Of a stretch of 10,762 nt of DNA, positions 3,774-4,200 are shown piece by piece. A model generated the notes under the pieces. It saw only the letters and a program-made list of their open reading frames with translations, did no database searches and was not told where the DNA came from. Positions within the stretch are counted from its first letter, which is position 1. Every line of letters starts with the position of its first letter. Source of the stretch: Terriglobia bacterium (GTDB taxonomy: Bacteria; Acidobacteriota; Terriglobia; UBA7540); NCBI GenBank assembly GCA_030040455.1, contig JASHTR010000529.1:1-10762 (forward strand), written 5' to 3'. The position numbers were made by a program, and so were the translations under genes.

Positions 3774-3788
3774 GCGGAGAGGGTGGGA
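3774..3788 (-). repeat. 15-bp duplicate of the tRNA-Ser 3' end
   Basis: GCGGAGAGGGTGGGA at 3774-3788 is identical to 4113-4127, which covers the acceptor 3' strand, the discriminator base and part of the T arm of tRNA-Ser. The two copies are in the same orientation and 339 bp apart, bracketing the GIY-YIG remnant. This is the pattern of an attachment-site core left by insertion at a tRNA 3' end. The copy starts in an A+T-rich stretch and is not part of a second tRNA. Confidence 0.7.
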
Positions 3789-3815
3789 CCTCCTACGTCC
3801 TCCGGACTATGGAGG
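3789..3815 (-). terminator. Hairpin after the GIY-YIG frame
   Basis: CCTCC (3789-3793) pairs with GGAGG (3811-3815), and GTCC (3797-3800) with GGAC (3804-3807) around a 3-nt loop, with a 3x3 internal loop between. On the minus strand it overlaps the TAG stop of the GIY-YIG frame and abuts the duplicated tRNA end. There is no T-run, so it may be a cassette-end structure and not a terminator. Confidence 0.35.
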
Positions 3816-4064
3816 TTAAAATTCGTTTACGCAGACTGGCGGCCCCGGAACCGCTCTTGAGGTACTTCTCCAGAGCGCGAGCAGTTGTTTCTCCCCGCAC
3901 CGCGATGTACGCTTCCAGCGCCAGTGGCCGACGAAATCTCGTGGACTCACATTTACCTTCGTGGTGCTCTTCCAGCCGACGCTTGAGGTCGTTTGTGGAG
4001 CCAACGTACAGTTTCCGTCCTTCTCGCTGGAAAGAATGTAAACATACCACATAAGATCGGCCAT
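3793..4064 (-). pseudogene. GIY-YIG family nuclease, frameshifted, attached to tRNA-Ser
   Basis: Two frames together encode a small single-domain GIY-YIG protein of about 90 residues. The first frame starts at ATG 4064 or 4052 with MWYVYILSSEKDG, the GIY-type strand. The second continues KLYVGSTNDLKRRLEEHHEG, which supplies the YIG strand and the conserved Arg and His, then ALEKYLKSGSG with the conserved Glu, ending at TAG 3795-3793. Restoring one A in the run at 4012-4016 gives a perfect join (DGKLYVGSTND). The frame that runs back over the tRNA to 4194 yields only tRNA-derived residues and is not a genuine N-terminus. It lies on the tRNA strand 46 bp past the CCA end and is probably transcribed with it. 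It is either a decayed mobile nuclease or an intact gene with a homopolymer sequencing error. Confidence 0.8.
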
Positions 4065-4110
4065 CCATCCTACGCCAGAGGCTTCGGATGGCTCGCCACC
4101 GGCGTTTGGG

Positions 4111-4200
4111 TGGCGGAGAGGGTGGGATTCGAACCCACGATGCGGTTTCCCGCATACACGCTTTCCAAGCGTGCTCCTTAAGCCACTCGGACACCTCTCC
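4111..4200 (-). tRNA. tRNA-Ser (anticodon GGA), CCA encoded
   Basis: On the minus strand, GGAGAGG at 4200-4194 pairs with CCTCTCC at 4121-4115, followed by discriminator G (4114) and an encoded CCA (4113-4111). The anticodon stem CACGC/GCGTG encloses the loop TTGGAAA, giving anticodon GGA, which reads UCC and UCU. A long variable arm (GCGG-GAAA-CCGC), typical of class II serine tRNAs, and a GGTTCGAATCC T-arm are present. Total length 90 nt. A good promoter lies 28 bp upstream. The 3' end serves as the apparent insertion site of the GIY-YIG cassette. Confidence 0.96.

Follow-up and report, generated by a model that had tools for sequence, protein, structure and literature searches.

In a stretch of 10,762 nucleotides from a Terriglobia bacterium (contig JASHTR010000529.1 of assembly GCA_030040455.1, called the window below), the 3' end of a tRNA-Ser(GGA) gene occurs twice, and the two copies enclose a small GIY-YIG nuclease frame. 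The question raised by this locus was whether the frame and its flanking repeat form a mobile unit, and of which kind. As we read it, the unit is made up of a leader, a GIY-YIG nuclease gene, a hairpin and a partial copy of the target tRNA. The evidence given below makes it rather probable that the window holds a decayed copy of a class of mobile elements of about 300-450 bp, each with one recognised gene, which insert at tRNA and tmRNA genes.

The tRNA-Ser(GGA) locus and its intact relative

When GCGGAGAGGGTGGGA was searched in the window with up to three mismatches allowed, two occurrences were found, both exact and on the same strand, 339 bp apart, and the 15-bp direct repeat described in the original prediction proved to be exact at both of its positions (Table 1). 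After shuffling of the 500 bp downstream of tRNA-Ser, a match of 15 bases was reached in 0 of 1000 shuffles and a match of at least 12 bases in 1 of 1000. The exact pair and this shuffle test together rule out a chance origin of the repeat. In the source genome, the 15-mer (at most one mismatch) was found at three places, namely the two copies in the window and a tRNA-Ser(CGA) gene on contig C85.

Table 1 Features of the tRNA-Ser(GGA) locus in the window
Feature	Position	Strand	Basis
tRNA-Ser(GGA), intact target gene	4111..4200	minus	ARAGORN; Rfam RF00005, 56.9 bits
First 15-bp copy of the tRNA 3' end, within tRNA-Ser(GGA)	4113..4127	minus	exact match
Leader, interval from tRNA to nuclease gene	4053..4110	minus	alignment with G008
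Small GIY-YIG nuclease gene, frameshifted	3793..4052	minus	PF01541, reading frames, alignment with G008
Imperfect hairpin CCTCCATAGTCCGGAGGACGTAGGAGG	3789..3815	minus	sequence; same position in G008
Second copy of the tRNA-Ser 3' end, downstream junction of the unit	3774..3788	minus	exact match; same place in G008

The frame between the two copies matches the GIY-YIG domain (PF01541, E 2.5e-10). It had been predicted that only a small GIY-YIG frame and a hairpin lie there; both are present, but the gene is frameshifted. Relative to the related genome G008, one base is missing within 4005-4019, and the protein is split into MWYVYILSSEKDG in one frame and KLYVGSTND... in another. Either the gene is truly a pseudogene or the assembly is in error at this point; the source genome is a draft of 630 contigs with a completeness of 77%. 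Because the gene is frameshifted, the 133-aa frame that reads into the tRNA is a mechanical artefact and no evidence for a tRNA-derived N-terminus, and for the window the earlier idea of an N-terminus running through the tRNA falls with it. A start by read-through was rejected on two grounds: relatives begin with MWYVYIL, and the frame in the window is shifted. The gene probably starts at the ATG at 4052, and the unit of the window looks like a dead, decayed copy. Its hairpin overlaps the nuclease stop codon and is followed directly by the second tRNA-end copy; taken alone, the hairpin of the window is not beyond chance (p 0.545).

In G008, a genome of the same family as the source, tRNA-Ser(GGA) is followed by an intact gene of 86 residues and by a tRNA-end copy at the same place. 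The nuclease gene is also intact in L027, from a Terriglobia MAG, and the proteins of both are identical. In an alignment of 348 columns, which starts inside the tRNA 3' end and closes with the second copy, the units of the window and G008 are 87.6% identical; the leader stretch CCGAAGCCTCTGGCGTAGG aligns to its counterpart in the G008 leader with one base different. Further matches, among those listed (matches of at most 120 columns starting within 100 bases of the tRNA start are omitted and the tRNA itself is unlisted), were two of 34 bases between the window leader and leader copies of G008. A repeat of the leader behind the second tRNA-end copy of G008 is, as we read it, the trace of a further unit. 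The leader motif CCTACGCTNNAGCTTCGG gave 11 matches in 8 of 40 genomes with one mismatch allowed, against 16 for a backward control; as evidence for a dispersed repeat this number is uninformative, being lower than that of the control. Six of the 11 matches sit one base past a tRNA-Ser 3' end (coordinates compared by eye), and because of this position the motif marks leaders or scars at those six places.

The source genome itself contains a remnant of a window-type nuclease gene on contig C85, which starts at most 10 bases behind tRNA-Ser(CGA) and carries stops; a downstream tRNA copy was looked for there and not found. For the tRNA-Ser locus of the window no empty site was found; two genomes (G001 and G002) have tRNA-Ser(GGA) without a recognised GIY gene, with no flank match to the window among the matches listed.

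tRNA linkage and phylogeny of the nuclease genes

With the window protein alone as query, a scan of genome contigs returned 68 loci. Among the best 11 (L027-L037), 10 have a same-strand upstream tRNA, which is tRNA-Ser in 8, tRNA-Asp in L030 and tRNA-Gln in L032, and L037 is without any. The tRNA lies within 300 bp in 9 of them; in L029, where the gene takes second place in an array, the distance to its tRNA-Ser is 445 bp. The remaining 57 loci (L038-L094) include 3 with a same-strand tRNA within 300 bp (L060, L088, L093), none of these three with a repeat. At L059, L061, L065, L083 and L086 (Nomurabacteria and uncultured bacteria), a small GIY-YIG gene was observed 71-82 bp from an opposite-strand tRNA-Gln, perhaps a shared synteny of another clade.

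In a draw across the Acidobacteriota, a match at E 1e-13 was obtained in 94 of 297 genomes. A same-strand upstream tRNA within 300 bp was found for 10 of 108 distinct genes from 108 fetched loci of this draw and an opposite-strand one for 0 of 108, the profile having been built from tRNA-linked genes and thus favouring them. By this measure, most small GIY-YIG genes are not tRNA-linked.

For 40 linked genes (same-strand upstream tRNA within 400 or 300 bp, depending on the gene set; the window counted once), the region behind the gene was searched for the last 30-40 bases of the adjacent tRNA, with a score of at least 12 taken as a copy (shuffled maxima 7-12). The tRNA's own 3' part is copied downstream in 26 of the 40, at about ten tRNA types (Ser, Met, Asn, Ile, Val, Lys, Arg, Asp, Gln and Glu), which bears out the suggestion of a general class of tRNA-linked elements. 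The expectation that homologues carry the tRNA-end repeat holds for these 26 but not for the other 14, in which no downstream copy was detectable and which include the Ser units L012, L022 and L099. In one of the 26, L033 behind tRNA-Ser(CGA), the best copy forms the 3' end of another tRNA-Ser gene, which is whole.

In a test blind to tRNA genes, direct repeats with a score of at least 14 were found to flank 58 of 221 genes, against 3 of 221 in the best of three shuffles. An upstream tRNA was called for 25 of these 58. Some of the other 33 are tRNA or tmRNA cases that were uncalled upstream or reversed (L101, L020, L023, L149, L105 and the tRNA-Ala loci), and others have different repeats. At L105, an 18-base copy of the tmRNA 3' end lies behind a small GIY-YIG gene. 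Repeats of the GTCATTCTGAGCGCAGCGAAGAATC type were observed on both sides of small GIY-YIG genes at L001, L108, L110, L119, L122 and L123, which are perhaps a second repeat-linked nuclease class. Carriage by phages was also considered and is not supported: with the L027 subfamily as query, none of 53 pattern stretches from viral contigs codes for a relative of the L027 protein.

The target tRNA follows the phylogeny of the protein, as judged from a tree of 219 genes. With 54 genes labelled by target, some by hand, this tree requires 18 changes of the target label, where 200 shuffles required 28-36; for the linked or unlinked trait the figures are 17 and 42-54. The tree rests on few columns, and its clustering is increased by near-copies. 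Acidobacteriota, Chlorobiota, Chloroflexota, Lentisphaerota and Peregrinibacteriota are among the groups that carry the 54 labelled genes. In a careful tree of these 54 genes, the window and G008 group (98/78) with genes of Chlorobiota and Peregrinibacteriota, all at tRNA-Ser.

The ratio dN/dS could be computed in 6 of 10 pairs; it was 0.09-0.13 in five of them and 0.99 in the tandem L112 pair (dS 0.024). Three pairs were saturated in dS, and in the tandem L106 pair dN was 0.006 and dS 0. The gene is under purifying selection in five of the six computable pairs, and no sign of constraint was seen in the tandem pairs L112 and L106. The protein is little more than the GIY-YIG catalytic domain, which is present with its conserved residues (PF01541; alignment of 15 relatives): Y5, Y16, G18, R26 and H30 are invariant and E62 nearly so, and we take these to be the catalytic residues. 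Among solved sequences, two UPF0213 proteins and SLX1 come closest to the protein (1zg2, 1ywl, SLX1 6seh and others). Proteins of the UPF0213/YhbQ and SLX1 types thus have the small GIY-YIG domain in common with the present family, and we know of no link between them and tRNA mobility.

Empty site, stacked units and tRNA mimics

One filled site could be compared with its empty counterpart. In G026, tRNA-Ile(GAT) is followed by the gene, by tRNA positions 13-27 (one mismatch), by the palindrome TCCCGACAAGGTCGGGA where the anticodon stem-loop would be, by positions 45-77 and then by the flank. In G013, which belongs to the same genus, there is a single tRNA-Ile and then at once the flank that follows the second copy of G026. 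Identity between the two genomes is 81% in the 2295 bp that lead up to the tRNA end and 84% in the 1264 bp that start at the copy, and GIY-YIG is the only recognised gene in the insertion. We regard G013 and G026 as a true empty-site pair, the sole strict one found; for tRNA-Ser, tRNA-Asn and tRNA-Lys, unit-free relatives exist, and a matching downstream flank was not found. The original prediction of a minimal mobile unit that restores the tRNA 3' end agrees with the layout in G008 and with this tRNA-Ile pair, and an empty site already holding the second copy, which it had named as evidence to the contrary, is not what G013 presents. On the evidence of the compared genomes, insertion leaves the host tRNA whole, with the unit after it and the displaced 3' part of the tRNA and the old flank behind the hairpin; the copied part matches the tRNA at that very site. 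Mobility of the element is well supported at the level of sequence, and the unit is probably selfish DNA.

At the fMet locus, G033 has two units and G009 one truncated unit, with flanks that are 94-96% identical. Tandem units were found at L106, L112, L116 and L029, and decayed copies in the window, on C85, in G009 and at fMet in G036. L260 (G024) is a scar, in which a palindrome-bearing mimic stands behind tRNA-fMet with no recognised gene. In the order, 68 tRNA-fMet and tRNA-Ser loci were compared for an exact second copy of the 3' end within 700 bp: it was present in 5 of 10 with a recognised GIY gene and in 1 of 58 without, 6 of these 58 having less than 400 bp behind the tRNA. Such decayed and stacked copies, the gene-less scar, the several targets and the patchy presence in the order (18 of 40 genomes at E 1e-10) argue against a host gene that acts with tRNA (in processing, defence or repair) and has been retained behind tRNA genes to be expressed together with them. 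The strand of the upstream tRNA (10 same-strand against 0 opposite-strand among 108 genes) and the constraint between diverged copies would fit such a gene, to which we give very little credence.

The downstream copy is not a plain copy but a tRNA mimic in those Met, Asn, Ile, Val, Lys, Arg and Ala units that were examined. A tRNA stretch is followed by a palindrome, mostly of the form TCC...GGA, which stands in place of part of the anticodon arm, and directly after it the tRNA continues; in L015, part of the T-loop is also replaced by a palindrome. Of 26 junctions chosen by hand (including two each from L015, L106, L116 and L149), 25 have a palindrome with a stem of at least 5, and L107 has none by this measure. 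In 24 of the 25 the palindrome lies within 2 bases of the junction, and no more than 13 of 500 shuffles equalled it; in L148 it is 3 bases away, and 145 of 500 shuffles did so. The 25 palindromes represent 23 different sequences. In an automatic set of 27 genes, only 10 junctions had a palindrome at p ≤0.05, and none significant was found in the Ser units other than L118, among them that of the window, in the Asp, Gln and Glu units and in some Asn and Met units.

The tRNA-Ala loci L013, L016, L019 and L024 are mirrored, with the palindrome-bearing mimic upstream, then the GIY-YIG gene and the intact tRNA-Ala downstream. Several tandem mimics of the tRNA-Ala 5' part with the palindrome TCCGACGGTGTCGGA were observed around one GIY-YIG gene at L024:1150-1926, each apparently with its own upstream region copied too. 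The junction palindrome, the tandem arrays and the mirrored form were absent from the original prediction.

Some copies are nearly whole pseudo-tRNAs (L015, L025), and tandem tRNA-Ser genes occur at the Chloroflexota loci L029, L031, L033 and L034, as would be expected from ordinary tandem tRNA duplication and decay with a GIY-YIG gene in between by chance. This explanation is already disfavoured, and hardly credible beside an empty site whose flanks are continuous, a layout shared by about ten tRNA types and several phyla, palindromes that adjoin the junction and the purifying selection in five of six computable pairs.

Integrase islands are kilobases in size, and to our knowledge their layout has no palindrome in the copied tRNA. 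The present units, in contrast, measure about 300-450 bp and have a palindrome inside the displaced copy; no tyrosine or serine integrase was found within them, nor is there room for one, and GIY-YIG is the sole recognised gene, so that the predicted lack of an integrase stands. What they have in common with the islands, which insert into tRNA and tmRNA genes (Islander; accessible text of PMC4383910), is the insertion in a tRNA gene, the restored tRNA and the displaced 3' end at the far boundary, and a direct repeat of the tRNA 3' end was found at both boundaries. The same footprint would be left if a tRNA-targeting tyrosine integrase encoded elsewhere acted in trans on a non-autonomous unit, with the GIY-YIG gene as its cargo. 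We consider this unlikely: the target tRNA tracks the GIY-YIG phylogeny, GIY-YIG is the only recognised gene in the one clean insertion (tRNA-Ile), and a palindrome within the copied tRNA is not known to belong to the integrase layout.

Possible route of transfer and relation to known systems

For the one-gene mobile element, we infer a nuclease-driven insertion through tRNA homology, in which the GIY-YIG nuclease would make the break that starts the transfer. This break could fall within the tRNA gene, in a homing-like manner, or in the cruciform-prone hairpin of the unit, through structure-specific cutting like that of SLX1. The palindrome is a plausible substrate because the nearest solved relatives include SLX1, a structure-specific nuclease. 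The two cuts are equally open; against cutting of the tRNA, the retained intact tRNA would stay a target, unlike in classical homing. The tRNA sequence would then serve host recombination as a homology arm. If a mimic-bearing unit and a tRNA gene underwent one crossover, the order would be tRNA-nuclease-mimic with the exchange on the 3' part, and the mirrored mimic-nuclease-tRNA, as at tRNA-Ala, with the exchange on the 5' part; this two-sided scheme is our reading of the anatomy. In its fullest form, which we put forward tentatively and somewhat short of an even chance, the class would be integrase-free: a structure-specific GIY-YIG nuclease would act on the palindrome in the tRNA mimic, the flanking tRNA halves would serve as homology arms, any matching tRNA gene in any species would be a landing site, the host tRNA would never be lost, and subfamilies would have settled on different tRNAs and on tmRNA.

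In searches of an open-access library, with most subscription papers and preprints outside its scope, no published description of a class of tRNA-linked GIY-YIG units was found among the entries listed, and the accessible part of PMC1564403 contains nothing on tRNA-linked small GIY-YIG genes. In its anatomy we regard the class as categorically new; its nuclease-driven mechanism is presumed. If autonomous, such units would by our estimate be among the smallest bacterial mobile elements, with a gene of about 80 codons and neither integrase nor transposase, and would target conserved, essential genes yet leave them whole. They offer a candidate role for some small GIY-YIG proteins of unknown function, would account for the pseudo-copies of tRNAs and the scars of tRNA 3' ends that occur in MAGs, and could point to a compact way of inserting DNA at tRNA genes. 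With the empty-site pair and the intact relatives, the mechanism is directly testable.

Insertion of a homing endonuclease destroys its recognition site, so that occupied sites are immune. Here the tRNA is left intact and re-usable and units are stacked at filled sites, which is not the pattern of occupied-site immunity, provided that the tRNA is the recognition site. Free-standing GIY-YIG homing genes such as that of T4 SegB, a homing endonuclease gene in a tRNA region (accessible text of PMC13096335), are alike in that a single GIY-YIG gene stands beside tRNA genes and selfish spread is likely. The present units differ from SegB in the intact target tRNA, the palindromic tRNA mimic at the far junction, the tandem stacking, and sites that are chromosomal tRNA genes of several phyla. 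Group I introns in tRNA genes, with their homing endonucleases, likewise combine a tRNA target with nuclease-linked mobility (available text of PMC3984707), but lie within the tRNA, whereas the insert here lies behind an intact one. In the window and the loci compared with Rfam (two sets, of 8 and 6), the only group I intron match was at L302, in the fMet region of G026; there was none in the window or in the filled tRNA-Ile locus (L306).

The REP/RAYT and IS200/IS605 systems work with HUH enzymes, not GIY-YIG, and make no tRNA copies. Hairpins at the element boundaries are what they have in common with the present units (PMC6006769, as far as its text is accessible). One type of junction palindrome was searched on both strands of 40 genomes of the order and gave 0-6 matches per genome; their total of 54 exceeds the 3 of the backward control but is small. 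For this type, REP-like dispersal in many genomic copies was not seen, and an abundant genome-wide REP was rejected. By the tested features, the class falls outside the integrase islands, the group I introns and the abundant dispersed REPs.

Two minor observations were made in the course of these searches. A dispersed repeat of about 110 bp, found in G005 through the flank of a tRNA-Lys unit, is present at 36 places or more with 71-95% identity (40 of 58 candidates scored). At L302:1141-1456 (contig C60 of G026), a tRNA-fMet is apparently split near position 36, with the group I intron match (Rfam) between the two parts, and a GIY-YIG gene with a stop lies about 40 bp downstream.
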